Below, in pieces: positions 4,979 through 54,926 of a stretch of DNA of 55,062 bases (its first letter is position 1; each line of letters begins with the position of its first letter). A model generated the notes under the pieces. The model had not been told where the DNA came from. It was given only the letters and a program-made list of their open reading frames with translations, and made no database searches. Source of the DNA: Bacilli bacterium (GTDB lineage Bacteria; Bacillota_I; Bacilli_A; RFN20; CAG-288); the NCBI GenBank assembly GCA_017470005.1, contig JAFUFH010000090.1:1-55062 (forward strand), written 5' to 3'. A program made the translations under genes and the position numbers.

Positions 4979-5422
4979 TTAAGCTTTTTGTTCTTGTTTT
5001 TTATCTAAGAAGCAAACAACGATAGATAAAACCATCAAGAGAGCAAAGATGACAAGGAAGGTAGTGAAGATATTAGAGACAGTCAAAGCGAATTCACCAC
5101 TATCGACGAAGAAAGCAACACCAGTGGCAAGGTCTGCGTAAGGATAGCAAGACATGAAGAGGTGTTGACCAACTCCACATCCATAAAGGATAGTGGAGAT
5201 GATAGCAAGGAATTCGATTTGAGTGAAGCAACATGCTAGAGAGAGAAGTCCACCCACCAAGACGAATAAGAAGGTGAAGAGTGTATTGTCAGGGAAGGAG
5301 ATGTGTCCTCTTACGACGGTGATTTCAATGATCAAGAAGAGGATAGAAGAGATTAAGGCGATGACACCTGTAACGAGTTGAATATAGAACGCTTTGCTAC
5401 GATTCTTGAGAGACAAATTCAT
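4979..5422 (-). CDS. Small four-helix membrane protein, unknown function
   Basis: The 147-residue protein has about four hydrophobic segments (near residues 15-33, 47-65, 70-88 and 113-138) and a short charged C-terminus (LDKKQEQKA). No enzyme motif is visible. Its start lies 1 nt after the stop of the upstream GH3 gene, so the two are co-transcribed and probably coupled. A role beside the membrane-anchored glycosidase, such as chaperone or anchor partner, is only a guess from position. It is the last gene of its operon. Confidence 0.75.
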   Translation of the reverse strand: MNLSLKNRSKAFYIQLVTGVIALISSILFLIIEITVVRGHISFPDNTLFTFLFVLVGGLLSLACCFTQIEFLAIISTILYGCGVGQHLFMSCYPYADLATGVAFFVDSGEFALTVSNIFTTFLVIFALLMVLSIVVCFLDKKQEQKA

Positions 5423-5423
5423 T

Positions 5424-8270
5424 TTATTTATCCTCCTTCTTCAAAACATACTTTAAGACAACATACATAGAAATGCCTGCGAGAGCTAAGACACCTAAAG
5501 AGACATTGAGAGTGATGAGGGCGGGTTTCCACCAAGGAATGGTTTCTTTAACGACAGTGTCTGCGGTCATATCGACAGTCAAATTGGAGTTAGCCATGTT
5601 GTAGAAGAAACGCTTGGCACTGATTCTTGCTTGAGACCAGATGTGTCCGTCTCTTTGTTTGATCAACCAGTTTTTAACTTCGGTGGTTCTATCGGCATCG
5701 TTATTGAACATATCGGTACCCGCATCAACAGCATCACCGGTGAAGATGTAAGAAGAAGCGTCTTTAGAAGAGTCGGTGATAGAGATACCTGTGGTACCCC
5801 ATTCTTCTCTTAAGAGAGTAGTCATCAAGGCTTTGTAAGAAGCGGTAGGGATGACACCTAAACGGTTGTAAGCGGACATGTTAGACATACCAGAACCTAA
5901 GTGAAGAGCACCTTCAAAGGATCTAGTTTCATTTTGTCTTAACACTTGTTCCGTCATGAAGGTAGCAACACCGTGACGGTTGGTTTCTTGATCGTTTCCG
6001 CAGAAGTGTTTGTTCATACCGATGAGACCACCCACTCTCATAGCGGTAGCTTCTTTTTCACCGCAGAGATAAGCGAGAGTAGAGTCTTCAGAGAAGTATT
6101 CAAAGTTTCTTCCACCGTAAGGAGTACGATGCATGTTGCATCCGCCACCATAGACCATGGTAAGACCAAGATACATGGCGTCTTCGGCAAGGAATTTTCC
6201 TCTTTCTTCTAATAAGTCAAGATTGAATGTGGAGGCGGAGAGGTTTTCGGAAGTGTGAAGGACACCACCTCTTTGTAAGCCATCAGGACCATCGACACCG
6301 GTGCAACCAGGATAGTTGATACCATCCTCACTAGCACCGATAGCATCATATCCCATCTTGTCACCATAAAGAGTGGCAAGCATGGTAGGAGTAAGTTGAT
6401 CGATGAAGGTTTCCCATTTCTCATCATCATACTCCACGCCCTTCATTTCGACGAATTTGATGGTGACAGGTTGAGAGTGTTTGAAGTCCTTGTAGTCAGG
6501 AGCATCACTAGGAGTGGTATAGAGTTCCGCACGTGCGGTCATATTCTTCTTTAATTCACCAGAAGTATCACCTTCCGTTGTTAATCCTGTGATTCTTTCA
6601 GGGAAAGTAGACCAATCATCTCTAGTGAGATATTCGACAGCATTTGCTTTGTAATTGTTGATGTTAACTTCAGGGAATTGGTTAGAAACCACTTTATCCG
6701 TATAAGGAGAAGTCGCCCAAGTGGTGTTATCTAAAGCAGCTAAGCTATCTTTGACAACAAGAGCCGCATTTCCGGAAACGGAATTTCCCTTTTCATCTGT
6801 CATGCCAGTGATTCCCATCTTAGCCATGACATTGTTTAAAGCATCGTGAGCGCCATTGCCGATAGAGAAATAATAATCTCCTTTATCAAAGACATAACAA
6901 CCTTTCTTGTTGCTGTCCTTGCCGTTTGTGGCATTCTCATCATATGTAGCGAAAAGATAATCGCTCACTTCGATAGAGACGGTCTCTTCTTTGTTGGGGT
7001 CAAGTTCGCTAGTCTTTGCAAAACCGACGAGCTGAATTGCACTCTTTTGGGCATTTCCGGATTCATAAGGAAGAGATGCGTATAATTGGACGGAATCTTT
7101 TGCCTTGAAAGAACCAGTATTTTTCACTTTGATGCTAGCTTTCAATTTATGGCTAGTCTTATCCCAAGTGATGGATTCTACACTTTCTTCAAAGGTGGTA
7201 TAAGTCAATCCATAACCGAACGAGAACTGCATCTCATCCGCATAATTCCACTGGGTGGAACCAGAGAAGACACCGAAAGGTCCAGAGGCATTGTTTTTGT
7301 TTTGAACTTGATCGAAATATCTTGTTTCGTAATACTTATATCCGACATAGATACCTTCGGCATAAACGACATATTTATCGTGATATAAGGAAACGGGTAA
7401 GTCACCCCAGGAGATATCACCGAAGTTCTGCATAGCAGGAGAAGAGAGAGAGTTTGTGGCATAAGTGTCACTTAAAGATCCCGAAGGAGAGACTTCGCCT
7501 TTGAGCATCTTAGCAACACCAGTCATACCATAGGCGCCAGGATATCCAATCCACATACAAGCATCGACTTGATAGTCATCCAACCAATCTAAGTCCATAG
7601 CGTATCCGGTGTTTAAAAGAACGACAATCTTTTTGAAACCAGAGTTTTTCACCAATTCCATGATCTTCTTTTCACTGTCGTGGAAAGAAAGTTCAGGAAC
7701 TCCATAGCTATCGGTGGTGTCCATGTCATTTGCTTCACCAGCAAAACGGCCAAAGACAACGATAGCGGCGTCTTTGTAAGAATCAGAGATTTTACCGCTA
7801 TAGATATCCGCATCGACTTCTCGGATATCTTTGTCAGAAGGAGAACGACCATTGCTCTTGGTGGCTTCAAAGACATCTTCATTGATGTTGAATCCTTCAC
7901 TCTTTAAAGCATCGTGAAGAGAGACACCGGCGTTAGAAGGTCCACCAGATCCACCATGATAAGTGGCATAAACGGAGGCGTTACCAAAGAGGGTGACATT
8001 CTTTCCATCCTTTAAAGGAAGGGCATTGTTCTTGTTGGTGAGAAGGACGGAGCCCTCTTCTTGAGTGCGGATGATGTAATCTTTCTCCGCAACTAACATC
8101 TCGTCTTTGTTTGCGTAAGCAGAACCGCCACTTTTAGGGGCGTTAGTCGTGATATTTAAAACTCTATTGATATCTGCTTCACGATCGAAAGCGAGAACGG
8201 ACATGAACGCAGTCACGGAGAGCAAGGCTCCGAAAGTGGCACCAAGTCCTTTAAACAAATTTTTCTTCAT
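5424..8270 (-). CDS. Membrane-anchored GH3 beta-glucosidase-like enzyme, permuted domain order
   Basis: The 948-residue protein has a hydrophobic N-terminus (residues 8-28) and a C-terminal membrane helix (about 915-942), which would hold the enzyme on the outer face. The domains run in inverted order. The GH3 C-terminal sandwich comes first (about 60-290, with EEGSVLLTNKNNALPL), then an FnIII-like domain (350-480, FGYGLTYTTFE), and the TIM-barrel catalytic domain comes last (about 610-880). The barrel keeps HRTPYGGRNFEYFSEDS, the NKHF motif (Lys754-His755) and ITDSS, whose Asp833 is the predicted nucleophile. Family members remove terminal beta-linked glucose or related sugars; the exact substrate is unknown. 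It sits third from the promoter end of a unit starting at the repeat lipoprotein (35-nt gap) and carries its own AAGGA site. Confidence 0.88.
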   Translation of the reverse strand: MKKNLFKGLGATFGALLSVTAFMSVLAFDREADINRVLNITTNAPKSGGSAYANKDEMLVAEKDYIIRTQEEGSVLLTNKNNALPLKDGKNVTLFGNASVYATYHGGSGGPSNAGVSLHDALKSEGFNINEDVFEATKSNGRSPSDKDIREVDADIYSGKISDSYKDAAIVVFGRFAGEANDMDTTDSYGVPELSFHDSEKKIMELVKNSGFKKIVVLLNTGYAMDLDWLDDYQVDACMWIGYPGAYGMTGVAKMLKGEVSPSGSLSDTYATNSLSSPAMQNFGDISWGDLPVSLYHDKYVVYAEGIYVGYKYYETRYFDQVQNKNNASGPFGVFSGSTQWNYADEMQFSFGYGLTYTTFEESVESITWDKTSHKLKASIKVKNTGSFKAKDSVQLYASLPYESGNAQKSAIQLVGFAKTSELDPNKEETVSIEVSDYLFATYDENATNGKDSNKKGCYVFDKGDYYFSIGNGAHDALNNVMAKMGITGMTDEKGNSVSGNAALVVKDSLAALDNTTWATSPYTDKVVSNQFPEVNINNYKANAVEYLTRDDWSTFPERITGLTTEGDTSGELKKNMTARAELYTTPSDAPDYKDFKHSQPVTIKFVEMKGVEYDDEKWETFIDQLTPTMLATLYGDKMGYDAIGASEDGINYPGCTGVDGPDGLQRGGVLHTSENLSASTFNLDLLEERGKFLAEDAMYLGLTMVYGGGCNMHRTPYGGRNFEYFSEDSTLAYLCGEKEATAMRVGGLIGMNKHFCGNDQETNRHGVATFMTEQVLRQNETRSFEGALHLGSGMSNMSAYNRLGVIPTASYKALMTTLLREEWGTTGISITDSSKDASSYIFTGDAVDAGTDMFNNDADRTTEVKNWLIKQRDGHIWSQARISAKRFFYNMANSNLTVDMTADTVVKETIPWWKPALITLNVSLGVLALAGISMYVVLKYVLKKEDK

Positions 8271-8305: not shown

Positions 8306-9586
8306 TTATTTGGATAAGGCTAAGTATTCTAAGGCGTTAGTGGAAGTGGCGGTGGTGAATTTCTTGGATCCACTAAATTTCTTGGCTTCAAGATATTCGG
8401 CACCAGTTTCATAATATTTGGTTCCAACGACTTCTTGAGAACCGGTTTCAGGATCATATTTGATATCTTTATCGGCGCTCTTTTCTTTCATTTCAGGAGT
8501 CCAGTTGGCGGTATCCACATAGTAAGAAGAGTCATAGGCCATAACAATTCTTGTAGGTTCAGATAAAGTGTAATAAACCGTATCTTCATCTAAATCGTCT
8601 ACTTCAGAAGTGAAAGTTCCGTAATACTTGGTCAAATAGTTATCTCTTTCATTGGCGGTAGCATCATTTCCTTCATCAGGAAGGATGACGGCAGAGAAGC
8701 AAGAAGAGGAGATGGTTAAACAATAAGTGTTATCGTTGAAAACCTTTAAATCTTGATAGGCGAAAGTGGTGAGATAGTAGTTATAAGTAGGTCTCATGTT
8801 GGAATAAGACATCTTGGCGGGAGAGAGGAATTCATTGGAGAGATTCTTGTCGATATCGGTCTTCTTGGTGGCGGGAGCATTGGCGACAGGTTTGTTATCT
8901 TTGGAGAAGACATCTAAGAATTCTAAGGCAGAGTTCTTCTTCGCGGTGGTCAAAGTGACAGGAGCAAACTTCTTAGCTTCAAGATATTCGGCACCAGTTT
9001 CATAATATTTGGTTCCAACAACTTCTTGAGAACCAGTTTCAGGATCATATTTGATATCTTTATCGGCGCTCTTTTCTCTCATAGCGGGAGTCCAGTTGTC
9101 GGTATCGACCGCATAAGCGGAATCATAAGCCATGACGATACGAGAAGGTTCAGATAAAGTGAAATAGACCGTATCCTCGTCTAATTCGTCGACTTCAGAG
9201 ACAAAGGCACCATAATATCTAGTGATATAATTATCTCTTTCATTAGCGGTAGCATCGTTTCCTTCAGCAGGAAGGATGACAGCAGAGAAACAAGTGGAAG
9301 AGATGGTTAAACAATAGGTGTTGTCAGAATAAGTTTCTAAGGTTTCGAAAGTGAAAGTGGTGAGATAGTAGTTATAAGTAGGTCTCATATTGGAATAAGA
9401 CATCTTAGCGGGGGAAATGTAGTTTCCAGTTAACGTGGCTTCTTTTCCTTCCCCGGAAGTAGTATCTTCCTGAGTCGTGGTATTAGGAAGAGTGGTTTCT
9501 CCAGCGGTAGTAGGATTAGAGGTTCCACAGCCAACTAAAGCGATGGAGGCTAGTGCTAAAACGGAAGTAACAAATAGCTTTTTCAT
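8306..9586 (-). CDS. Lipoprotein with two nearly identical tandem domains
   Basis: The 426-residue lipoprotein has a signal peptide with lipobox LVGC (Cys20), a Thr-rich linker, then two copies of a domain of about 170 residues starting with SPAKMSYSNMRPTYNYYL and ending near TGAEYLEAKKF. The copies share long identical stretches, including EGNDATANERDNY and KSADKDIKYDPETGSQ. Each has two Cys in TYCLTISSxCFSAVILP, which might form a disulfide. I recognise no enzyme motif; a glycan-binding or structural role is guessed from the neighbours. It is the first gene of the GH3 operon, with AAAAGGAG before the ATG and a predicted LytTR-controlled promoter upstream. Confidence 0.8.
   Translation of the reverse strand: MKKLFVTSVLALASIALVGCGTSNPTTAGETTLPNTTTQEDTTSGEGKEATLTGNYISPAKMSYSNMRPTYNYYLTTFTFETLETYSDNTYCLTISSTCFSAVILPAEGNDATANERDNYITRYYGAFVSEVDELDEDTVYFTLSEPSRIVMAYDSAYAVDTDNWTPAMREKSADKDIKYDPETGSQEVVGTKYYETGAEYLEAKKFAPVTLTTAKKNSALEFLDVFSKDNKPVANAPATKKTDIDKNLSNEFLSPAKMSYSNMRPTYNYYLTTFAYQDLKVFNDNTYCLTISSSCFSAVILPDEGNDATANERDNYLTKYYGTFTSEVDDLDEDTVYYTLSEPTRIVMAYDSSYYVDTANWTPEMKEKSADKDIKYDPETGSQEVVGTKYYETGAEYLEAKKFSGSKKFTTATSTNALEYLALSK
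8320..9430 (-). repeat. Direct duplication, period about 591 bp
   Basis: Matching DNA stretches recur with an offset of 591 bp (for example AGATATTCGG at 8391 and 8982), equal to 197 codons, and produce the two domains of the lipoprotein gene. The high DNA identity points to a recent duplication or ongoing gene conversion. Confidence 0.85.
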
Positions 9587-9616: not shown

Positions 9617-9665
9617 AGCCCCTACGGCTTCTAATCTAGTTAAGAGTTTATAAGACATAGGGGCT
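9617..9665. repeat. 8-bp inverted repeat flanking a promoter
   Basis: AGCCCCTA (9617-9624) and TAGGGGCT (9658-9665) are perfect complements 33 bp apart and bracket the -10 box of the lipoprotein operon. There is no T-run on the minus strand, so it is not a classic terminator for the upstream rhamnosidase gene. It could fold only in read-through RNA. Confidence 0.5.
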
Positions 9666-9712
9666 AGAATTTCTTCAACGGCGAAAATTGACGTTTTGAA
9701 GTCAAAAATTGT
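9645..9712 (-). promoter_or_regulatory. Predicted LytTR operator and promoter of the GH3/lipoprotein operon
   Basis: Read on the minus strand, two direct repeats ACAATTTTTG (9712-9703) and TCAATTTTCG (9691-9682) start 21 bp apart, as LytTR-family regulators require (9-bp half-sites with a 12-bp gap). A -10 candidate follows after 29 nt (TATAAA, 9652-9647) or 31 nt (TAAACT, 9650-9645). No good -35 box is present, as expected for an activated promoter. Confidence 0.7.
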
Positions 9713-9719
9713 TAAAAAG

Positions 9720-12206
9720 TTACTGAACGGTGATGGTGTGAGTACCGTTACTGAGGTGTAACGCTCTCTCTTCTAAGGCGACAGATTCTCCATCGAGAGT
9801 GACTTGATTTCCAAAGGAAGGATCAAGGAGGAGTCTTCCTCCATCGTTAGGACAAGTGACTTGGATGGTGGTCTTTTCTTCTTTTGTTTCTAAAGTAAAG
9901 GAGAGAAGACCATCGGGAGTGGTTGCAGAAGCTTGATAGGAAGAGGAGACTCCGTAAGCGGGTTTGATCTGATAACTTTGGTATCCTGCACTCAAAGGTT
10001 GAATGCCAGCAAAGTATTTGCTCATGACCACTAATGGACCACCCGCCCATCCGTGATTGATGGTTCCAGAATCCGGAGCGGGATCCCACTCTTCCCAGAG
10101 AGTAGAAGCTTCGTATTCAATCATTCCTTTATAACGGGTGAGCATTCTCTGTTTTGCTTCAGTGAAACGATTCATCTTGGCTAAGGCTTCATCCACAAAT
10201 CTTTCCATATAAGGGGATGCGTAAGCCGTATTGACCAAAAGGGAAGTGACTAAGTCATAATCCTTTTCCTTCACAAGACCAGAGAGAACAGCAAGGGCGT
10301 TTCCTCTATCATCATAGGGACGTCTTATTCCATCACTAGTCACAGATGCAAAACCATTTTCGGTTCTATAGATGCTATCAAAGACAGATTGGATGGAGTT
10401 TCTTCTCTGTTCAAAGAGGGTTTTATCTTCGTCTTTCAATTCTCCAACTTCTTTTCCAAGAAGCAGGACTCTCTCTAATGCCCAGTAATACCAGCACTGT
10501 TCCATCAAATCCGAATCGGTATTGTTTCCCCAGTCGACCCAGGGGAATGTACCATTTCGATATTGAACAGTTCCATTTTTATTCATATTCCATAATTTGA
10601 GATAGTTTACATAAATGGGAAGAATGAGCTTCATGGTCTCTTTATCCCCGGTGTGGAGGTAGTAATCATAAGTGGTGATGATACAAGCTAAGTTTTGCAT
10701 CGGGATCTCGTTGGTAGTCTTACTTGGCCAACGGGAAGGAATGACATCCTTCATATCCCCTTCATCTGTGACCCAACCAAGAAGAGAAGTGTAAGTCTTT
10801 TTGGCTAAGGCCCAACCATCGCTATCTAAGGCATAAAGAGTTTCTGCAATTTGGTTAGCGGCATCTCCGGTGTAGGGAGAACGTTCTCTTTCTGGGCAAT
10901 CCATGTAGTTATCTCTCATGCAGATGCGAAGAGTATTGGATGCTTTTTTCCAAAGAGTATCTAAATCTTTGTTATCGGATTGATACTGTCCGGTTTGAAG
11001 AGCGTTGTATCTTGTTTTTCTATAGCCAACTTTGGTGATAGTGATACCCGCAGGGACTTCCATGATGAATTGATAACCGGTTCTATAATAGAGTTGTTGA
11101 TATTCTTGTTTTCCTTCTATGGTGACATAATCGTCCATGAAGGAAGTGGTTCCTTGTGTGGTTTTGGTGTTGGTGTAGAAGGTGATCACTTTTCCTTTTT
11201 CATCTGCTTCTAATTCGAAGTAAGGAAGGAATTGTTGATTCTCATCTAAGGCAAAGGTAAGAATGCTATCGCTGGTGGTTTTCTTTCCTAAGACCGAGTG
11301 TATATCTTCCATGTCTGTCACTTCTTCATCAAAAGCAAAGGGAGGAATTTCACAATAATAAGTGTCACCGAAAGGAAGATTTCCAGGAAGGCAAAGTAAG
11401 CTAGCATCATCCCAGGTGGAATCATCTAAGCTTTCATCGGTGAAATCTTCTTTGAAGGAAGCGTCAAAATAGATATCTCTTTCGGCTAAGAAAGAAGAGG
11501 TGGGGTGATTGGGATATTTCTCCTTGAGGTTAGATTTGTTTCGATAGGCAGCGATTCTTTTGACTTTGGTTTTGGAATCGGAGACGATATGTTCCTCTCC
11601 TAAAGATAAGTCATAAAGAAGACCACCTTGGAAATTCTCTTCATCTTTTTTTGCAGCGATAGAAGAGTTTCCACTTTGTCCCCAGAAGACGACTTCAAAG
11701 ACAATCAGGTTTTCGCCTTGCTTCAAATGAGACGTGACATCAAAATTGGAATAATAAGAGTCATGTTCACTCATACCTCTTTTGATGTTTCCATCTACGA
11801 CAACTAATTTACCGTTGATCCAAACGGTGACTTTATCTGCCGCAGATAAAGAAAGAATCGCTTTAGAAGGAATTTGATTGACCTGGAATTTTCTGCGGAA
11901 AGCAAAATAGGAATCGGCGGGAGTTTTGCTATACCAAATCCATTTAGCTCCATTCCAAGCAGGAGCTTCTTTCTTTAATGAGGATAATTTGGATAGGTAA
12001 GGCAAATGAGAAGTGTCTTCTTTTCCTTCTGGATAAAGATATTCTTCGACTTCTTCCTCGGGGGTAGTAATGCTTTCTTGACTTTCTTCTGTTGAGGTAG
12101 TCGTGGTGGTAGCAGGAGTAGTTTGGCTAGGAGAAGTGATGGCACTTTCCCCACAAGAAGTAAGGAAGGTTAAACTGATCAAGGATAACAAGATTTTCTT
12201 TTTCAT
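9720..12206 (-). CDS. GH78 alpha-L-rhamnosidase lipoprotein
   Basis: It removes terminal alpha-linked L-rhamnose from glycans or plant glycosides outside the cell. The 828-residue protein has a lipobox (LTSC, Cys18) and a Ser/Thr-rich linker (19-50). A sandwich domain opening with AKWIWYSKTP (about 87-200) precedes the (alpha/alpha)6 barrel. The motif DCPERERSPYTGD at 436-448 places Asp436, Glu441 and Asp448 where the known catalytic-site residues lie in the Bacillus GL1 enzyme RhaB (Asp567, Glu572, Asp579). WEEWDP further on suits the family. A beta-sandwich closes the protein. The gene has AAAAGGA before the ATG and its own predicted LytTR operator. The next operon starts just downstream without a clear terminator between them. 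Confidence 0.9.
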   Translation of the reverse strand: MKKKILLSLISLTFLTSCGESAITSPSQTTPATTTTTSTEESQESITTPEEEVEEYLYPEGKEDTSHLPYLSKLSSLKKEAPAWNGAKWIWYSKTPADSYFAFRRKFQVNQIPSKAILSLSAADKVTVWINGKLVVVDGNIKRGMSEHDSYYSNFDVTSHLKQGENLIVFEVVFWGQSGNSSIAAKKDEENFQGGLLYDLSLGEEHIVSDSKTKVKRIAAYRNKSNLKEKYPNHPTSSFLAERDIYFDASFKEDFTDESLDDSTWDDASLLCLPGNLPFGDTYYCEIPPFAFDEEVTDMEDIHSVLGKKTTSDSILTFALDENQQFLPYFELEADEKGKVITFYTNTKTTQGTTSFMDDYVTIEGKQEYQQLYYRTGYQFIMEVPAGITITKVGYRKTRYNALQTGQYQSDNKDLDTLWKKASNTLRICMRDNYMDCPERERSPYTGDAANQIAETLYALDSDGWALAKKTYTSLLGWVTDEGDMKDVIPSRWPSKTTNEIPMQNLACIITTYDYYLHTGDKETMKLILPIYVNYLKLWNMNKNGTVQYRNGTFPWVDWGNNTDSDLMEQCWYYWALERVLLLGKEVGELKDEDKTLFEQRRNSIQSVFDSIYRTENGFASVTSDGIRRPYDDRGNALAVLSGLVKEKDYDLVTSLLVNTAYASPYMERFVDEALAKMNRFTEAKQRMLTRYKGMIEYEASTLWEEWDPAPDSGTINHGWAGGPLVVMSKYFAGIQPLSAGYQSYQIKPAYGVSSSYQASATTPDGLLSFTLETKEEKTTIQVTCPNDGGRLLLDPSFGNQVTLDGESVALEERALHLSNGTHTITVQ

Positions 12207-12232
12207 ATTAAAAGTTCCTTTTTTGTGATAAT

Positions 12233-12300
12233 ATTTTATTTAGGGAAAACACAAACATTTGTTTAAGAACAAAAATTGTATTTATAAAAGCAAAAATTGA
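12233..12300 (-). promoter_or_regulatory. Predicted LytTR operator and promoter of the rhamnosidase gene
   Basis: On the minus strand TCAATTTTTG (12300-12291) and ACAATTTTTG (12279-12270) start 21 bp apart. TAAAAT (12238-12233) follows after 31 nt as the -10 box. The first repeat also touches the divergent promoter of the two-component genes. Confidence 0.75.
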
Positions 12301-12306
12301 TATATA
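12298..12306 (+). promoter_or_regulatory. Extended -10 promoter of the two-component operon
   Basis: TGA-TATATA fits an extended -10 box and ends 14 nt before the ATG at 12321. No Shine-Dalgarno site is visible. Its TG overlaps one LytTR half-site. Confidence 0.45.
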
Positions 12307-12320
12307 AAGATTGAAAAAGC

Positions 12321-13034
12321 ATGGAATTGGTTAAAATTGTCATCCTGGAAGATGAAAAAGAACACTCGGACAAGTTGATTTCTTTCCTGAATCAGTATTC
12401 TCAAGAGACAGGAAAGGTTTCTTTTGATATCCGTCTTTATGAAGCTCCATTGGAATTCATGGAGACCTTCCGTTATGATGCCGATATCATCTTTTTAGAT
12501 ATTCAAATGCCAGGAATGACCGGAATGGATGTCGCCCATGAAATTCGTAAGCAAGACCAGGATGTTACACTCATCTTCATCACGGCTTTAACCCAATATG
12601 CTGTGGAAGGATATTCCGTGCAAGCTGAAGACTATATCTTAAAACCAATTTCTTACCCTGAATTCAAAATGAAAATGGTAAGATCCCTTTCTAGAATCGT
12701 CTTGAAAGGTGGCAAATATCTCACCTTTATCAACAATGAGACCATTCAAAAGGTGTCTTTAGATAGCATCACTTATATCGAGACAGATATGCATCGTCTT
12801 CTTTTCCATGACAACGAAGGCTTTTGCTTTGTCAAACATCAATCCATGAAAGAATGTGAAGAAGAATTAAAAGGAACCGATTTCCTTAGAATCAATTCTT
12901 CCTATTTAGTGAATTTAAGATATGCTGTCAATATCAGCAACGGGGACATGCTTCTCAACGATGGTACCAGACTCAAGATTTCTCGACCGAGAATGTCTGA
13001 AGTTTGCTCTGAATTTGCTCAATTTAAGAAATAG
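12321..13034 (+). CDS. LytTR-family response regulator (AgrA-like)
   Basis: This is the DNA-binding half of a two-component system. Residues 1-125 form a receiver domain with an acidic pocket (ILEDE, Glu10/Asp11), phosphorylation site Asp60 in FLDIQMPG, and Lys108 in ILKP. Residues about 130-235 form a LytTR domain (KYLTFINNETIQKVSL ... FLRINSSYLVNL), the fold that binds paired 9-bp direct repeats. The kinase gene follows after 3 nt. The gene is divergent from the rhamnosidase, and four matching operators lie within 8 kb. It likely activates the glycosidase genes. The transcript leader appears to be very short, with no Shine-Dalgarno site. Confidence 0.92.
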   Translation: MELVKIVILEDEKEHSDKLISFLNQYSQETGKVSFDIRLYEAPLEFMETFRYDADIIFLDIQMPGMTGMDVAHEIRKQDQDVTLIFITALTQYAVEGYSVQAEDYILKPISYPEFKMKMVRSLSRIVLKGGKYLTFINNETIQKVSLDSITYIETDMHRLLFHDNEGFCFVKHQSMKECEEELKGTDFLRINSSYLVNLRYAVNISNGDMLLNDGTRLKISRPRMSEVCSEFAQFKK

Positions 13035-13037
13035 TAT

Positions 13038-14393
13038 ATGACAATCATTTATTTTTTGCGTACATGGGGTGCAATCACTAGCTTTTATACCATGCTCTAT
13101 GAATGGGAAATCATTCAGCATTTGGTATGTATTTTCCTTTTTAATTGGCATCTTCCAAAACGCAAATATACATGGCTTTATTGTACCATCGGAACTGTTT
13201 TGATGCTCGGGTGGGGCTTTTTGCTTGGATTTTTAAGAGATTTGTGGCCCGATTCCAATCTTTTTAAAATCTTCGCTACTCTTTCTTTATATAGTTTCTC
13301 GTTATTTATCACCTTCTTCTGCTATAACGAAAAACATTGGTCCCACGTATTCTTAAGCTGGATTACCGCATTGTGTGTAAGGGAAGTGATTGATGCAGGT
13401 TATGCTCTAATTTGTATGTCTACAGGACAAAACCCACGTCTTGGTATCATTCAGTTTATCGATAATGATATCTTCAATCTAGTGATGTATGATCTCATGC
13501 ATATCGTCTTTGCTATCGCTTTGTATTTCTTGTTGAGAAAACGTATTCATTTGGTGGAAGATCGCTCCATTTCTTTGCGTATCATCATCATTTCATTAAC
13601 GATGTTATTTGCGCTGGTTTTAATCAAAACATTTGTTGTGATCAATTCGGAATCGGCAATACCTTTGTACGGGTGTTGTGAAGCATTAATCTTACTTGTT
13701 TCTGCCCTTCTTTTATTTGTAAGAGCGGACATTTTAAGAGAATCTTCCTTCAAAGTGGAACAAAGAATCATGGATCAAGTTTTAGCCGAAAACAAAAAAC
13801 AATATCAGTCTTTGAAGACCAATATTGATATTGTGAATATGAAAGCTCACGACTTAAAACATCAGTTAGAAAAATACCAAGATAAACTGACCCAAGAAGA
13901 AGTGGAATCCTTAAGAAATGCGGTAGATGTTTATGACAAAGATATCCGTACTGGATCTCCTGTCTTAGATACCGTTCTATATGTCGAGCACCTTGTTTGT
14001 GACAAACATCAGATTCAATTCACCTATCTATGTGATGGGCATCAGTTAGAGAACTTCTCCTCTAGTCAGCTCTATTATCTCTTCTCGAATATCATTGATA
14101 ATGCTATCGATGCTTGCAAGGATGTGCCTGTGGAAAATAGAATCATTTCTTTCAATATTCGACAAAAAGATAATCAAATTGTCATTGATTCTTGTAATTA
14201 TTTTGAGGGATCTAGAAATATTCAAGATGGTGTGATGGAGACGACAAAGAAGAATAAAGCCCATCATGGATATGGATTAAAATCTATCAAGATGATTGTG
14301 GAACAAAACAAAGGTAGTATGAATATTCATACCGAAAATAATATGTTCTTTATGGTAATCAACCTACCGATACCCGAAAAGAAAACGATTTAA
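13038..14393 (+). CDS. GHKL sensor histidine kinase (AgrC-like)
   Basis: The 451-residue kinase has about six membrane helices in residues 8-230, a coiled-coil linker (about 235-265), the phospho-acceptor motif AHDLKHQ (His271), and an ATPase domain of the HATPase_c_5 type with N-box NIIDNAIDAC (351-360) and G-box GYGLKSI (411-417). This is the layout of AgrC and other peptide- or small-molecule-sensing kinases. No AgrD-like peptide gene or AgrB is nearby, so the signal may be a sugar product or a peptide encoded elsewhere. It is the second gene of the pair. Its stop overlaps the stop of the convergent isomerase gene by 3 nt. Confidence 0.9.
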   Translation: MTIIYFLRTWGAITSFYTMLYEWEIIQHLVCIFLFNWHLPKRKYTWLYCTIGTVLMLGWGFLLGFLRDLWPDSNLFKIFATLSLYSFSLFITFFCYNEKHWSHVFLSWITALCVREVIDAGYALICMSTGQNPRLGIIQFIDNDIFNLVMYDLMHIVFAIALYFLLRKRIHLVEDRSISLRIIIISLTMLFALVLIKTFVVINSESAIPLYGCCEALILLVSALLLFVRADILRESSFKVEQRIMDQVLAENKKQYQSLKTNIDIVNMKAHDLKHQLEKYQDKLTQEEVESLRNAVDVYDKDIRTGSPVLDTVLYVEHLVCDKHQIQFTYLCDGHQLENFSSSQLYYLFSNIIDNAIDACKDVPVENRIISFNIRQKDNQIVIDSCNYFEGSRNIQDGVMETTKKNKAHHGYGLKSIKMIVEQNKGSMNIHTENNMFFMVINLPIPEKKTI

Positions 14394-15274
14394 TGATTGT
14401 TTTGATGAGAGTGGAATAGTTTCTGCTCTCTTTTATATTGGCTGATGAAATCAAAGCTTACACAAAGAGATTCGATGGGGTTTTTATGTAAGTAATGTTT
14501 GTGTTGTTCTAAAATGACCGCCTCGACTTCATTCTCTTGATCTTGCTTTAAGAAGGCGAGGAGGTTTAAATTTCCTGTTCCTAGTTCCACCGCTTCATTG
14601 GAAATGATGGGTGTCATGAATTTTTTGTGACTTAAATTTCCGTGATCACAGATGTGATGAAGTTTTTGTCTTTTTCCTAATTTCTTCATGTAGAAAAGAG
14701 CATCCACCCCAGAGATAGAGGGCCAATAGCTATCAAATTCAAAAGAAACATAGTCGGGATCGGTGTTTTCGATGATGAAGTCATAGGCTAATCTATCGGG
14801 AGTAACATGAACAAATTCTACATTATGATTGTGATATAAGAACGTAAGGCCGTGCTCAGATAAGTTCTTTCCTATCTTGTTGAGACGTTCCGCAAGAGCG
14901 AGCACTTCTTTCTTAGAACTATACTCAAATTGATATAAGCCAGTTAAAACAATGTTGTGTGTTTGAAATAAGGTTGCTTCTTTCACCACATCGTCAAGTC
15001 TTTTTTCTAAGGTGTCGATATCTTCGTGAATCGAAAAGACTTTCAAGGAGACTTGATCTAATAACTCTTTCCAATTCATCTTGCCAGAATTCTTGATGGG
15101 CATCCCACTCATGGAAGTTAAAAATTTGACAATCCAGGGGCTTTTTCGAATCATGAAACCATTCAATTCGATGCCATCATATCCAGAAGCTTGGATGATT
15201 TTTAACGCATTGAGTGCATTCTTTTTATTGCTAAGGACTTTCCCTAATTGTAATTGTTGAACACCAAATTCCAT
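14390..15274 (-). CDS. Sugar phosphate isomerase/epimerase-like TIM-barrel protein
   Basis: The 294-residue protein belongs to the xylose-isomerase-like TIM-barrel superfamily (AP_endonuc_2). It has the early segment ASGYDGIELNGF, the HNH pair in LTFLYHNHNVEF, and acidic metal ligands in SFEFDSYW and near its end. No signal peptide is present, so it works in the cytoplasm. Relatives isomerise or epimerise free sugars or inositols, and the neighbours suggest a rhamnose- or glucose-derived product, but the substrate cannot be read. It is transcribed alone from a predicted LytTR-controlled promoter. No terminator is visible on its strand after the stop. Confidence 0.8.
   Translation of the reverse strand: MEFGVQQLQLGKVLSNKKNALNALKIIQASGYDGIELNGFMIRKSPWIVKFLTSMSGMPIKNSGKMNWKELLDQVSLKVFSIHEDIDTLEKRLDDVVKEATLFQTHNIVLTGLYQFEYSSKKEVLALAERLNKIGKNLSEHGLTFLYHNHNVEFVHVTPDRLAYDFIIENTDPDYVSFEFDSYWPSISGVDALFYMKKLGKRQKLHHICDHGNLSHKKFMTPIISNEAVELGTGNLNLLAFLKQDQENEVEAVILEQHKHYLHKNPIESLCVSFDFISQYKREQKLFHSHQNNH
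14407..14434 (+). terminator. Probable terminator of the two-component operon
   Basis: GAGAGT (14407-14412) pairs with GCTCTC (14425-14430), followed by TTTT. It lies inside the 3' end of the convergent isomerase gene. The stem is short, so termination may be partial. Confidence 0.45.
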
Positions 15275-15307
15275 AAGCTGCCTCCCTCTAAGTCTTTATT
15301 TGACAAC

Positions 15308-15375
15308 ATTATAAAAGGAAAAAAGGAATGTTTTTTTCTTTCGTCAATTTCTGTCTTTTTACAATCAAAAATTGA
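15308..15375 (-). promoter_or_regulatory. Predicted LytTR operator and promoter of the isomerase gene
   Basis: On the minus strand TCAATTTTTG (15375-15366) and the weaker ACAGAAATTG (15354-15345) start 21 bp apart. A perfect TATAAT (15313-15308) follows after 31 nt. Confidence 0.7.
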
Positions 15376-15377
15376 TG

Positions 15378-15409
15378 AAGAAAACCCGTCTGCTTTTGCA
15401 AACGGGTTT
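15378..15409 (-). terminator. Terminator of the lipoprotein gene
   Basis: AAACCCGT (15382-15389) pairs with ACGGGTTT (15402-15409), with an inner TGC/GCA step. A short T-rich tail follows on the minus strand. Confidence 0.65.
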
Positions 15410-15434
15410 AGAAAAGGTTTATGAATGAAGCTTA

Positions 15435-16766
15435 TTATCTAGCCATGGTAGCAGTGTGTTCAACACTGTTGGCATCAACATATTTGAAGGAGTAGTTGTT
15501 GAAGGACCAAGTTCCGGTTTCAGTTAATTTATAGGAAGTGAAGTAGAATTTATAAGTACCATCCTTTAAGCAATCAAAGGTGCAAGAGGCATTTTCACCT
15601 TCTTTCACTTCTTGAGCAAAGCTGAATAGGACGTCAGTATCGCCTTCAACAGGTTGATAATTTAAGGCACTAGCGGTGCTCCAAACAGCAGCGGAGCAAA
15701 CAAATCTAGCCTTCAATTGAGCAGAGGCGACAGCAACATAATCGAAGTAAAGAGTGCCTTGAGAGTAGGAAGGGCCTTCTTGTTCACCACCAGATTCTTT
15801 GCCGATCAAGTTAGAGACATCTTCGCAGTAGAAGTTGTATCTAGCAACATAATCACCATAGACAGCTTCTTCCCAAGCGATGGTAGCGGATTTGTTTTCG
15901 GCGATAACAGCTTCACGAGGAGTTCCACCGATGACAACAGTCAACTTTTCCTCTTTGTAAGACCAAGAGATTTCACCCTTAGGATAGTAACCAATCAAAG
16001 CGCCATTTTTATCTAATCTTGCACCATAATCGGAACCAGTGTTATCGGCGAAGAGATAGAGCTTTTCTTTGGTTTCAGTATCTTCAAAGATAGCAGCGTA
16101 TTCTTCAGGTTCAACGAATTTATAGCTGGTTTCTTGGATGAATTCATCTAAAGTTTCATAAGGATCAGCATTGTATTCTAATTTGACAGAACGGCCAGAG
16201 ATACCGATCGGAATGGTGAAATTAGAGATATTTAAGGGAGTTTCATCATCAGAAGCAAAGTTGATGAGGTAAGTGTTCTTACCAGTGATGGGTTGACCAG
16301 TTTGTCCCTTGACACCATCAACGATGTTGACAACGGCTTTGATGCATTCATTATCGTCATCATCAGTAGCGAGGCCCCAGACACCATCAAACCATTTGGT
16401 AAGGTTTTTGTTTTCTTCCGCAGCGGAAGTATCTAAGGAATATATAGAATATCCGTATCCGTCTAACTTACCATCGGCATAAAGATTCAAGATATAAGAG
16501 TAGGCGAAACCGAAGTTGGCCATTTCGGTGTTGACACCAGTCCACTGATATTGAAGAGTGTGTTCTTTTTGTTCTTCTTCAGAATTGGTGGTGTTTTCTC
16601 CCGCAGTAGTGTTAGGGGTGTTTTCTCCCGAAGTAGTGTTAGGGGTGGTCTGTTGAGCAGTAGTTTCTGTGGGATTGGTGTTGCTAGCGGGAGTTTCACC
16701 GCAGGAAGCCATACCGAAAACGGAGATAGTAGAGAGTGCCAATAAGGCTAATCTTTTTAATTTCAT
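15435..16766 (-). CDS. Lipoprotein of unknown function in the glycosidase locus
   Basis: The function is not recognised. The 443-residue protein has a signal peptide with lipobox MASC (Cys21) and a Thr/Asn/Pro-rich linker (about 25-65) containing repeated NTTxGENT units. A long extracytoplasmic region rich in Tyr, Asp and beta-prone stretches follows. Its last third looks like a carbohydrate-binding-type sandwich (a segment like ENASCTFDCLKDGTYKFYFTSY), by appearance only. It follows the second GH3 gene by 85 nt, with AAAGGAGG before its ATG and no promoter that I can see, so it is probably the second gene of that operon. Confidence 0.75.
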   Translation of the reverse strand: MKLKRLALLALSTISVFGMASCGETPASNTNPTETTAQQTTPNTTSGENTPNTTAGENTTNSEEEQKEHTLQYQWTGVNTEMANFGFAYSYILNLYADGKLDGYGYSIYSLDTSAAEENKNLTKWFDGVWGLATDDDDNECIKAVVNIVDGVKGQTGQPITGKNTYLINFASDDETPLNISNFTIPIGISGRSVKLEYNADPYETLDEFIQETSYKFVEPEEYAAIFEDTETKEKLYLFADNTGSDYGARLDKNGALIGYYPKGEISWSYKEEKLTVVIGGTPREAVIAENKSATIAWEEAVYGDYVARYNFYCEDVSNLIGKESGGEQEGPSYSQGTLYFDYVAVASAQLKARFVCSAAVWSTASALNYQPVEGDTDVLFSFAQEVKEGENASCTFDCLKDGTYKFYFTSYKLTETGTWSFNNYSFKYVDANSVEHTATMAR

Positions 16767-16801
16767 CTTTTTATCCTCCTTTAAAATTTGATGTAAGATG
16801 A

Positions 16802-16830
16802 TCGCTCTCTTTTTTGAAAGGAGAGAGCGA
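16802..16830 (-). other. Intercistronic hairpin between GH3 and lipoprotein genes
   Basis: TCGCTCTC (16802-16809) and GAGAGCGA (16823-16830) are perfect complements. No T-run follows on the transcribed strand, so a stability or processing hairpin is more likely than a terminator. Confidence 0.5.
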
Positions 16831-16851
16831 GAACCTTAGGAAAAAACAGAA

Positions 16852-19800
16852 TTAATTACCAGCGACTTGAGTTTCTTTGACTAAGAAGCGTTCTAAGATG
16901 ATCATGGCAATACTAGCCGCAGCGATACCAAAGCCAGCAAAGGTGATGACCTTAAGAACCACGATCCACCAGGATTCAATCGGGATGATGGTGGCAGAGG
17001 AAGTGAGGCCGTTCATAGCGATAGAGTGAGCGATGGATTGGACGATACGTTTGGCGGCAACATGCATACAATGCACGATGGCTTTATCGTTCTCATATCC
17101 ATTGAGAGTACCAGCGGTACCGGAACCATCCCACAAATCTTGACCAGCTAAGACACCCATAGCGATGTCCATATAATCGGCGAAGACAGAACAGTCAGTG
17201 ATGGCAGCACCCTTCATACCCCATTCGTTACGTAAGACATTGGTCATGAGGTTGTAATCAGAACCTGCCCAAACAACACCTAAACGGTTGAAGGAGGTCA
17301 TGACACCTGCACCACCACCTAAGACAGAACCTTCAAAGGCTCTGAGATAGATTTCACGGATACTTTGTTCATTTGCCCAAGTGGAGAGACCGTAACGACC
17401 AGATTCTTGATCGTTGAGAGCGAAGTGCTTTGTGAAGACATAGATACCTCTTTCTTGGATGGCTCTAACTTCGTGTTCTAATGCTTTAGAAGTGAGGAGA
17501 GAGTCTTCAGAGAAGTATTCGAAGTTGCGACCGCAATAAGGAGTTCTGTGAATATTTCCACCAGGACCATATAAACCAGAGGTTCTTATATCCGCTTTAT
17601 TGTCGGCTTTTCCGCAGTCTTCTCCGATGAAGGAGCCCATCTTAGAAATCATGTCGATATTTCTAGTTGCTGCCATGATGTCTTCAGAGGTGTAACCCAT
17701 ACCGGAAGCACCAAATTGTAAGGATTTGGTATAACCTTGAGGACCATTTTCATCATAAGTTCCAGGTAAACCTAAGGAACCGATAGGTTGTGTGGCGTGG
17801 AAGCCATTACCGATGAGCTTATGGAGGTCTTCGAAAGAAGCTTGCTCGACAAGGTCTTGCCATAATTTGGCGCCTTCTTCTGTCTTATGATCTTCAGTGA
17901 TATCTCTCTTTTGGAACATGATAGCGGTTAAACCATTCTGTTGATTGAACTTTTCTAATTCGGTGATGTCAGAATAGTGAGCGGCTTTCATCTTTTCGAC
18001 GATAGCTTTTCTTCCTTCGGGAGTAGCAATCAAACCATCTTCCCACATCTTAGGAGAAATCTTAAGAGTTGGTCTTGTTGAAGCAGTGGGCATTGTTCCG
18101 ACCCAATCTTTACGAGTTAAGTATTTGATAGATTGGTCATCTTTGGTTCCTTCGTACTTGTTTAAGTCGGCGTGATCGAATTGGTTGGTGACTTTATAAC
18201 CTGTCTCTTCAGAAGTGGAACAAGTTGTGCTATCTAATTCATTTAAGGTCCATTTGGCGGTGTTGGCTGCTTTACCTTCCGCATCCATTTTGCCGGTGGT
18301 AGAAGAAGGAGTGTAACCTTTGGCGGCTAAGATATTGTTCAAAGCTTCGTGAGCACCGTTACCAATAGAGAAGTAGTAATCGCCTTTATCTAAGATATAG
18401 GTCTTAGCGAGGTTAGCATCATAAGAGGCGATATCTCTCTTCTTGATGGTGATGTTCACTGTTTCGCTTTCACCCGCTTTGACGATACCCGTTTTGGCAA
18501 AGCCAGCTAATTGAACTGCGGCTTTTTCGACACCATTTTCTCTGTCATAGTCGGTGTAGGGAGTTTGAACATAGATTTCCGCGGAGTTTTTACCATCGAC
18601 GGAACCCTTGTTTTCTACTTTGACAGAAACATCGAAATGGTCACCGTTTTCTTTCACATTGAGATTGGAATATTCCCAAGTGGTATAAGATTCACCAAAA
18701 CCGAAGGGGTAAGCAACATCATCATGATATCTGTATTCACCAGCATTTCCGTTACCTGTGACAAAGTCTTCATAACGGGTTTCATAATACTTGTATCCGA
18801 TGTAGATACCTTCTTGATAAACCATGTAATTCTCATTACATTCACCAGATTTACCCGGTTGATTGTATTGAACCCAAGAAGTCTTGTATTCACCCGTCAT
18901 ACCAGAGGCAGAAGAGTTAGTGAAGGCGTGTAAGCCGAAGTTGATGGCGGCAGGAGAGGTTCTATTGTTATTTAAGAAAGTCTCCGCCAAACGTCCGGAA
19001 GGATTGGTGTCTCCCGCTAAGATAGAAGCGACACCTTCCATACCATGAGTACCAGGGTCACCGATCCATAAGGCGGCATCGATGCCATAGGTGTCGGAAG
19101 TGAGGAAGTCGAGTTTGACTAAGTTAGAACCGTTGAGCAAGACAACAATCTTTTTGAAGACACCGTTGTCTTTGTATTGCTTCAATCCGGTTAACATATC
19201 GATTTCATTCTGATTGAGTCTTAAGTAATCGCCATCGATACCATCGGCGCATTCACTCATCGGTAAGTCGTTACCTTCACCACCAGAACGGGCGATGAAG
19301 ACAAGGGCGACATCTCCGTAATCGGCAAAGGAATCTTCCACTTCTGGAGTGATGACTTCCGCCCAAGGGGCTTCGTTGATACGATATTGATCAATGGTTC
19401 CACCAGAGGTGGCAGCATTGACTCTACGGTATTGAGTCAGATCATTGAAATAGTGGTTGTAGAGAACGTTGTTGGTACACTTTTTCGCAAAGTGTGCATT
19501 TAAACCAGCACGGATGGTGGTAGCTTGAGAGATGTTGACTTGACCAGAACCAGTACCGCCATAGACAGGGTCGACAGAAGAGGTAGAGAACATAGAGAAT
19601 TTGGTTGTCTTAGCTAAAGGAAGGGTATTGTTTTCGTTCTTGAGAAGAACAGCACCTTCGGCTTCTAAGTTTGTGCATAGTTCTTTTTCATCCTCTGCTA
19701 ACTTTTTACTTCCTTCTTCTGTGTTAGGATAGTTGGTTTTGTAGTATTCTGTGTCTTCTTCATTACCACCGGTGTCTTTGATCTCGAATGTTTTAACATT

Positions 19801-19923
19801 CCAAGTACCATCTAATTGGGTTTTGAAGAGGGGGGATACTCCCCAGGCAACAGCACCTACGACACCAAGGAATCCGAAAACAGAGGAGAGGGAGATCCAT
19901 AATGGTGTGTGTTTTTTCTTCAT
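16852..19923 (-). CDS. Second membrane-anchored GH3 beta-glucosidase-like enzyme, permuted
   Basis: The best start is the ATG at 19923, preceded by AAGGAGC; the frame extends upstream but has no ribosome site there. The product is about 1023 residues, with an N-terminal membrane segment (about 8-32) and a C-terminal helix (about 985-1008). The order is again GH3 C-terminal domain (EGAVLLKNENNTLPL), FnIII-like domain (FGFGESYTTWEYS) and catalytic barrel (HRTPYCGRNFEYFSEDS, TKHFALNDQE, and AITDCS with the predicted nucleophile Asp). It is related to the enzyme encoded at 5424-8270 but clearly diverged. It heads an operon with the lipoprotein at 15435-16766 under a predicted LytTR promoter. Substrate specificity is unknown. 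Confidence 0.88.
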   Translation of the reverse strand: MKKKHTPLWISLSSVFGFLGVVGAVAWGVSPLFKTQLDGTWNVKTFEIKDTGGNEEDTEYYKTNYPNTEEGSKKLAEDEKELCTNLEAEGAVLLKNENNTLPLAKTTKFSMFSTSSVDPVYGGTGSGQVNISQATTIRAGLNAHFAKKCTNNVLYNHYFNDLTQYRRVNAATSGGTIDQYRINEAPWAEVITPEVEDSFADYGDVALVFIARSGGEGNDLPMSECADGIDGDYLRLNQNEIDMLTGLKQYKDNGVFKKIVVLLNGSNLVKLDFLTSDTYGIDAALWIGDPGTHGMEGVASILAGDTNPSGRLAETFLNNNRTSPAAINFGLHAFTNSSASGMTGEYKTSWVQYNQPGKSGECNENYMVYQEGIYIGYKYYETRYEDFVTGNGNAGEYRYHDDVAYPFGFGESYTTWEYSNLNVKENGDHFDVSVKVENKGSVDGKNSAEIYVQTPYTDYDRENGVEKAAVQLAGFAKTGIVKAGESETVNITIKKRDIASYDANLAKTYILDKGDYYFSIGNGAHEALNNILAAKGYTPSSTTGKMDAEGKAANTAKWTLNELDSTTCSTSEETGYKVTNQFDHADLNKYEGTKDDQSIKYLTRKDWVGTMPTASTRPTLKISPKMWEDGLIATPEGRKAIVEKMKAAHYSDITELEKFNQQNGLTAIMFQKRDITEDHKTEEGAKLWQDLVEQASFEDLHKLIGNGFHATQPIGSLGLPGTYDENGPQGYTKSLQFGASGMGYTSEDIMAATRNIDMISKMGSFIGEDCGKADNKADIRTSGLYGPGGNIHRTPYCGRNFEYFSEDSLLTSKALEHEVRAIQERGIYVFTKHFALNDQESGRYGLSTWANEQSIREIYLRAFEGSVLGGGAGVMTSFNRLGVVWAGSDYNLMTNVLRNEWGMKGAAITDCSVFADYMDIAMGVLAGQDLWDGSGTAGTLNGYENDKAIVHCMHVAAKRIVQSIAHSIAMNGLTSSATIIPIESWWIVVLKVITFAGFGIAAASIAMIILERFLVKETQVAGN

Positions 19924-19972
19924 ATTTTGCTCCTTTTCATGAAGAAAGACTGGACGTCTTTTCTTGGCTAAT

Positions 19973-20040
19973 ACTTTAATCACTTTGCCAAAAAGAAAAC
20001 GCTCACATTCAAAAATTGTAGGTTCATGAGCAAAAACTGT
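19973..20040 (-). promoter_or_regulatory. Predicted LytTR operator and promoter of the second GH3 operon
   Basis: On the minus strand ACAGTTTTTG (20040-20031) and ACAATTTTTG (20019-20010) start 21 bp apart; the first begins like AgrA half-sites (ACAGTT). TAAAGT (19978-19973) follows after 31 nt. Confidence 0.75.
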
Positions 20041-54808: not shown

Positions 54809-54926
54809 ATGAACTACCTTCGTGCTTAAAAATATTATCTCACTTAAAGAAATCAAATTCACTATTTATTGATAGTCATTACTCATAAATATTAAAATTC
54901 CCTGTTTTTGCTGCTGTTTTCCATCG

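Follow-up and report, generated by a model that had tools for sequence, protein, structure and literature searches.

The stretch of DNA analysed here, henceforth the window, is a 55,062-nucleotide contig (JAFUFH010000090.1, assembly GCA_017470005.1) from a member of the Bacilli, and the subject of this analysis is a locus within it that encodes surface glycosidases together with a LytTR response regulator and an adjoining histidine kinase. Four intergenic regions of this locus carry two phased direct repeats, each such double site being followed by a -10-like hexamer read from the sequence. We predict these double sites to be operators and number them 1 to 4:

9682..9711, minus strand: predicted operator 1, CAATTTTTG-N12-CAATTTTCG, upstream of the lipoprotein-GH3-membrane protein operon (9586 to 4979)
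9645..9650, minus strand: -10-like TAAACT, 31 nt past operator 1
12270..12299, minus strand: predicted operator 2, CAATTTTTG-N12-CAATTTTTG, upstream of the rhamnosidase gene in the divergent rhamnosidase/regulator gap
12233..12238, minus strand: -10-like TAAAAT, 31 nt past operator 2
15345..15374, minus strand: predicted operator 3, the weakest, CAATTTTTG-N12-CAGAAATTG, upstream of the sugar isomerase-like gene
15308..15313, minus strand: -10 TATAAT, 31 nt past operator 3
20010..20039, minus strand: predicted operator 4, CAGTTTTTG-N12-CAATTTTTG, upstream of a GH3 gene (19923-16852) and a lipoprotein gene (16766-15435)
19973..19978, minus strand: -10-like TAAAGT, 31 nt past operator 4

The genes of the locus, with glycoside hydrolase families abbreviated GH, are:

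4979..5422, minus strand: small membrane protein, last gene of the operon behind operator 1; family members adjoin GH3 genes in two related loci (L110, L113)
5424..8270, minus strand: GH3 of permuted domain order (C-domain, Fn3-like, N-domain), with membrane segments at both termini
8306..9586, minus strand: lipoprotein of unknown function, lipobox LVGC
9720..12206, minus strand: GH78-type alpha-L-rhamnosidase, a lipoprotein, lipobox LTSC
12321..13034, plus strand: LytTR response regulator (receiver and LytTR domains)
13038..14393, plus strand: GHKL (HATPase_c_5) histidine kinase with 5-7 membrane (hydrophobic) segments
14390..15274, minus strand: xylose-isomerase-like TIM-barrel protein, cytoplasmic
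15435..16766, minus strand: lipoprotein of unknown function, lipobox MASC
16852..19923, minus strand: second GH3 of permuted domain order, likewise with membrane segments at both termini; the start is likely ATG at 19923, not GTG at 19983

All four double sites lie on the minus strand and read CARWWWTTG-N12-CARWWWTTG, with a period of 21 bp between repeat starts and exactly 31 nt from the second repeat to the -10-like hexamer. An earlier note on this DNA had described four such minus-strand sites around a LytTR regulator and kinase in mid-locus; motif search and shuffles locate the sites where it had placed them, PF00072, PF04397 and PF14501 are matched above cut-off by the regulatory pair, and the 31-nt spacing, which that note had been sure of at three sites, is found at four of four if TAAACT is taken as the hexamer of site 1. 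Its statement that the repeat occurs nowhere else in the window also stands with CARWWWTTG, which turns up the four sites and no others (shuffle mean 0.08; none of 100 shuffles reaches four). This half-site was, however, picked after site 3 and the nearest ortholog (L109, below) had been seen, so that it gives no independent test of site 3. The motif originally proposed holds for sites 1, 2 and 4, and site 3 is weak unless the widened form is used; it is that form (0 mismatches) together with the geometry that speaks for site 3. Site 2 is also legible as a plus-strand direct repeat, and its candidacy as the promoter element of the regulator gene was rejected because the 31-nt geometry would place the -10 within that gene; hence we assign site 2 to the rhamnosidase gene, though autoregulation through some other geometry is conceivable. 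The -35 matches of these promoters are poor by eye, and a generic promoter scan found sigma-70 promoters not to be in excess, as expected if the -35 elements are poor.

The genome searched for further copies amounts to 1.93 Mb and is 91% complete. In it CARTTTTTG-N12-CARTTTTTG is matched perfectly by sites 2 and 4 and with one mismatch by site 1, and nothing else comes within one mismatch, while three mismatches, the level of site 3, are shared with frequent chance matches. The CARWWWTTG double site recovers the four window sites and one unlinked perfect match on another contig, C79. The whole-genome scan that the earlier note had called for thus finds the double site nearly, and not wholly, confined to the locus. 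The C79 site (C79:14017-14046, corresponding to L004:1500-1530; CAAAATTTG-N12-CAATTTTTG) is intergenic, about 45 bp ahead of a gene for a secreted, membrane-anchored 313-aa protein, and has TAATAT about 32 nt downstream; it is possibly an unlinked fifth target, or a product of chance.

The nearest regulator, with 67% identity, is encoded on a 4.8-kb contig of isolate RUG810 (L109; L059 appears to be the same contig, length and match coordinates being identical). The gene order is kept, with rhamnosidase, regulator, kinase and the apparent end of a gene similar to that of the lipoprotein at 15435. The rhamnosidase promoter there reads CAGAATTTG-N12-CAAATTTTG, followed after 31 nt by TAAAAT, so that the 21-bp and 31-nt geometry is conserved between L109 and the window, whereas the bases differ.

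To place the regulator in a wider context we considered its relatives and their gene neighborhoods. This genome encodes eight LytTR proteins, and genus relatives give up to 19 matches to the regulator, receiver-only partial ones included. A GH3 gene is present in 35 of the 40 loci fetched from the window's family, the other five ending at a contig end. A second set of loci, from other families of the same class, was picked solely by regulator similarity and fetched after the test had been designed; here all 40 loci have a GH3 gene, whereas none was present in the 20 control loci, whose LytTR regulators are more distant and a few of whose contigs are short. A gap in score (E of ~1e-67 or better versus ~1e-57 or worse, the window genome aside) divides the two groups and suggests that the GH3-linked regulators form a real subfamily. 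Hence, the regulator at 12321-13034 looks like a member of a LytTR subfamily tied to genes for domain-permuted, membrane-anchored GH3 proteins. The best-scoring solved relative of the permuted GH3 is a B-glucosidase (PDB 5k6l), and the idea that these proteins are dead sensors is unsupported, since almost every member in the alignment has the putative catalytic aspartate (TD motif). Rhamnosidase genes recur in six loci (L120, L178, L181, L189, L196 and L205); the rhamnose label itself is a tentative one that draws on a single enzyme family assignment (GH78-type) and this recurrence.

The same two sets of loci were used to examine the promoters of GH3/rhamnosidase-type operons for phased pairs, defined as two 9-bp half-sites that match each other at 8/9 positions or better. 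In the first set, from the window's family, pairs at 21-bp spacing occur in 17 of 47 promoters, three of them the window's own (shuffle mean 0.97, maximum 3), compared with five promoters at 22 bp and about one at each other spacing. In the second set they occur in 11 of 47, with about one at other spacings (shuffle mean 1.45, maximum 6). Across 29 operators the -10 hexamers (at least 5/6 matches) cluster 35-38 nt from the center of the second half-site, which is equivalent to the 31 nt of the window. A search for phased operators ahead of the lipoprotein-GH3 operons in L110 and L113 found none.

While the geometry is shared, the half-sites vary from module to module, with CAATTTTTG in the window, TTTCACGMAA on contig C19, GGTTATGCA on C6, CCASTTATWCC on C10 and AARTAAGTCAA on C13. 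That paralogs should possess their own, different and equally local repeats is a prediction of operator ownership by the local regulator. Genome-wide, at up to three mismatches, the C19 motif is found at three places, all within the C19 locus and each upstream of a glycosidase-type gene. The TTTCACG-type operators of this module (L105) lie at C19:20566, 25696 and 35142, and the genes concerned belong to a family with a weak GH20-associated domain match, plus a GH3 gene. The two best genome matches of the C6 motif (bar an overlapping reverse-strand one) both fall in the C6 module, ahead of its GH3 gene and of a gene for a Big_2-domain protein; at two mismatches three unrelated places appear too. 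Half-site similarity of at least 8/9 is seen in four of five pairs of modules with 45-60% regulator identity versus 4-8% of pairs at 30-40%, in numbers that are small and from pairs that are not independent. Of 36 cases tested for half-sites common to different promoters of one locus, 7 pass after correction against 1.8 expected, three of the seven being the window's own promoters.

A second element in these promoters is a box resembling the catabolite-responsive element (cre):

19994..20007, plus strand: cre-like box AGAAAACGCTCACA, differing from TGWAANCGNTNWCA at one position and placed between operator 4 and its -10

At the window locus it is found at operator 4 only. Allowing up to two mismatches, cre boxes occur in 23 of 47 GH promoters (about 5 expected) versus 30 of 167 others in the first set, and in 34 of 47 (5.3 expected) versus 22 of 184 others in the second, where 19 of 47 GH3 promoters (L172-L211) match TGWAANCGNTNWCA perfectly. 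Also encoded in the genome are an HPr kinase (HprK, over the cut-off) and a CcpA-like protein that scores below the curated cut-off, so that promoter box, regulator and kinase of a CcpA regulon are all represented. The enrichment at GH promoters suggests that the modules may serve sugar catabolism under catabolite repression.

Several further observations concern the genes in and around these modules. The closest PDB entries in sequence to the isomerase-like protein (14390-15274) are 8tct, 8tcs and 8tcd, of sugar phosphate isomerase/epimerase-like type, which may hint at sugar chemistry. No transporter was seen between 4979 and 19923, and two of the lipoproteins have no known domain. Just upstream of operator 3, the lipoprotein gene at 15435 ends in a terminator-like feature, read from the sequence:

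15382..15409, minus strand: intrinsic-terminator-like stem, AAACCCGTTTGCAAAAGCAGACGGGTTT then TTTTCTTC

Genes for GGDEF proteins lie near two GH3-LytTR modules of this genome (window 20144-21619; L103:1832-2920), and window 53360-54862 encodes a relative of a secreted Endonuclease_1 protein that is found within the GH3-LytTR module in L118 and L123. In L114 and L115 a sulfatase gene adjoins the GH3 gene, suggesting a sulfated glycan as substrate. In L110 and L112 (both G009) the regulator and kinase genes are convergent with overlapping ends and do not form an operon.

Taken together, we consider it very probable that the four phased repeats are operators of the LytTR regulator encoded at 12321-13034, and that paralogous LytTR-kinase-GH3 modules form a family to which the locus belongs. 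The basis observed for this is the sites, their geometry, their near-confinement to the locus, their conservation, the GH3 linkage and the co-variation of regulator and half-site. The more important result, and a supported one, is that LytTR-GH3 modules, each with operators of its own, make up a large set that includes this locus. Control of the rhamnosidase, both GH3 operons and the isomerase gene by the pair, as the earlier note had proposed, is likewise supported at the level of sequence by the gene content, the LytTR-like geometry, the conservation in L109, the near-confinement and the private repeats of the paralogs. With glycosidases, surface proteins, a regulator and a shared operator, the region has the makeup of a local glycan-utilisation locus, presumably under common control. 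Several points weigh against this interpretation. The perfect C79 site is either chance or a target that is not local; the second half-site of operator 3 is weak when judged by the stricter CARTTTTTG; more than half of the module promoters have no clear phased pair at the thresholds used; sharing of half-sites across the promoters of one module is statistically clear in few modules (7/36); and near-identical orthologs from a single genus are among the held-out loci, whose counts are therefore not fully independent.

Binding, activation, the signal and the substrate are parts of the model that we infer. The kinase (13038-14393) would phosphorylate the regulator on a glycan-related signal, whereupon two regulator molecules would occupy the two half-sites on one helix face, just above the poor -35 regions. 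Judging from this geometry, the bound regulator would recruit RNA polymerase to the rhamnosidase gene, both GH3 operons and the isomerase gene, while the cre box suggests that, given better sugars, CcpA may repress the main GH3 promoter at least. Several paralogous LytTR-kinase-GH3 modules per genome, each with its own half-site, would be largely insulated from one another. It is conceivable, if rather doubtful, that throughout a clade of gut bacteria many such insulated LytTR-kinase pairs, each reading its own operator code, govern glycan digestion at the cell surface, with the anchored GH3 of each module acting as a co-sensor for a kinase that itself lacks an extracellular domain.

The alternative that survives best concerns the signal and is compatible with the operator assignment, namely that an AgrC/ComD-like kinase senses a pheromone and, through an AgrA/ComE-like regulator, turns on the glycosidases at high cell density. 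A GHKL kinase that has 5-7 membrane segments but lacks an extracellular domain of any size, paired with a LytTR regulator, is indeed typical of peptide sensing. Yet AgrB (PF04647) was not matched in the bacterium's own 91% complete genome, in a search whose positive control was weak, and the space next to the pair is too small to hold a pheromone gene (114 bp upstream, an overlapping convergent gene downstream; an unlinked precursor was not searched for). The consistent GH3 linkage and the cre boxes fit nutrient control better, and we regard quorum sensing as unlikely. That the regulator represses rather than activates its targets is more improbable; nothing favors it directly, although site 2, close to where the regulator gene starts, could serve to repress that gene, and the operators occupy the position above the -35 that is known from proven cases of LytTR activation (PMC6193735), with -35 matches that are poor by eye. 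We give slightly less credence still to the repeats being operators of some other regulator, global or a LytTR paralog, with the local pair a mere neighbor. The genome does offer eight LytTR proteins, but the motif is nearly confined to the locus, other modules have different local motifs, and half-site similarity follows regulator identity even in cross-genome comparisons of rhamnosidase and GH3 promoters. Finally, the half-site is A/T-rich and site 3 weak, but chance similarity among A/T-rich promoters is scarcely credible given a count never reached by shuffles, the exact 21-bp phase, the exact 31-nt spacing and the replication across families.

If the LytTR-kinase pair does own these operators, a rule readable from sequence (a pair phased at 21 bp, then a -10 after 31 nt) ties the LytTR systems of these uncultured bacteria to their target glycosidases, and the natural divergence of several regulator-operator pairs within one genome offers material for studying the evolution of LytTR specificity. 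LytTR systems are best known for virulence, competence and bacteriocins, and the present results suggest that Gram-positive gut bacteria also use them for local glycan regulation. Such a role was hinted at in 2010, and no follow-up was found in the literature searched. That search, to which subscription papers were mostly out of scope, found no description of these operators or of the module family, an absence that is no proof of novelty.

The closest relatives by domain content are AgrA, ComE and VirR, which combine a receiver with a LytTR domain, a polytopic GHKL kinase and phased direct repeats, and which target virulence, competence or bacteriocin genes. The window has the same receiver-LytTR regulator and adjoining GHKL membrane kinase, and its repeats, with gaps of 12 bp, agree with the roughly 9-bp repeats and 12-13-bp gaps that mark a LytTR two-component system; it differs in that its targets are glycosidases. 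The hybrid two-component systems of Bacteroides likewise supply each glycan locus with a local regulator from a large paralogous set; these have another DNA-binding domain and another sensor, whereas the window kinase is without a large extracellular domain. The linkage of LytTR and GH3 genes is already known from Butyrivibrio, as the LytTR promoter geometry is classic, and the earlier note's impression that a LytTR-run, rhamnose-directed glycan locus of this kind was unfamiliar must be qualified accordingly. In B. proteoclasticus B316 the polysaccharide utilisation loci (PULs) 7, 21 and 33 have LytTR regulators near secreted GH3 proteins with a C-terminal membrane helix, and the authors proposed a common function for these loci (2010; PMC2914790); this is a brief remark in a genome paper, and in its accessible portions operators, a rhamnosidase link and a family-wide analysis were not found (PMC2914790). 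The Roseburia Gram-positive PUL (gpPUL) Ros-7 lists a LytTR regulator and kinase in a polysaccharide locus, which differs from the present one in being an arabinoxylan locus with ABC/GPH transport and AraC, and for which the accessible part of the report yielded no operator description (PMC5320581). The rumen enzymes GlyA1 (PMC5104943) and BrGH3A (PMC11233000) represent the permuted GH3 subfamily with reversed domain order in papers that, as far as their accessible portions go, focus on the enzyme, while the window GH3 is membrane-anchored and tied to a regulator. The nearest parallel in promoter structure is with the HdrRM and BrsRM systems of Streptococcus mutans, whose LytTR promoters have 9-bp direct repeats that are separated by 12 bp and lie about 8 bp above the -35; in BrsR an 8-bp gap, the hexamer of 6 and a spacer of 17 add up to 31 nt to the -10, and half-sites vary between systems while the geometry is conserved (PMC6193735). 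Repeat geometry and the 31 nt to the -10 are the same in the window (PMC6193735). The S. mutans LytTR regulatory systems have a membrane inhibitor in place of a kinase and govern autoregulated bacteriocin and competence genes, whereas in the window the partner is a histidine kinase, the regulator has a receiver as well as a LytTR domain, and the targets are glycosidases.

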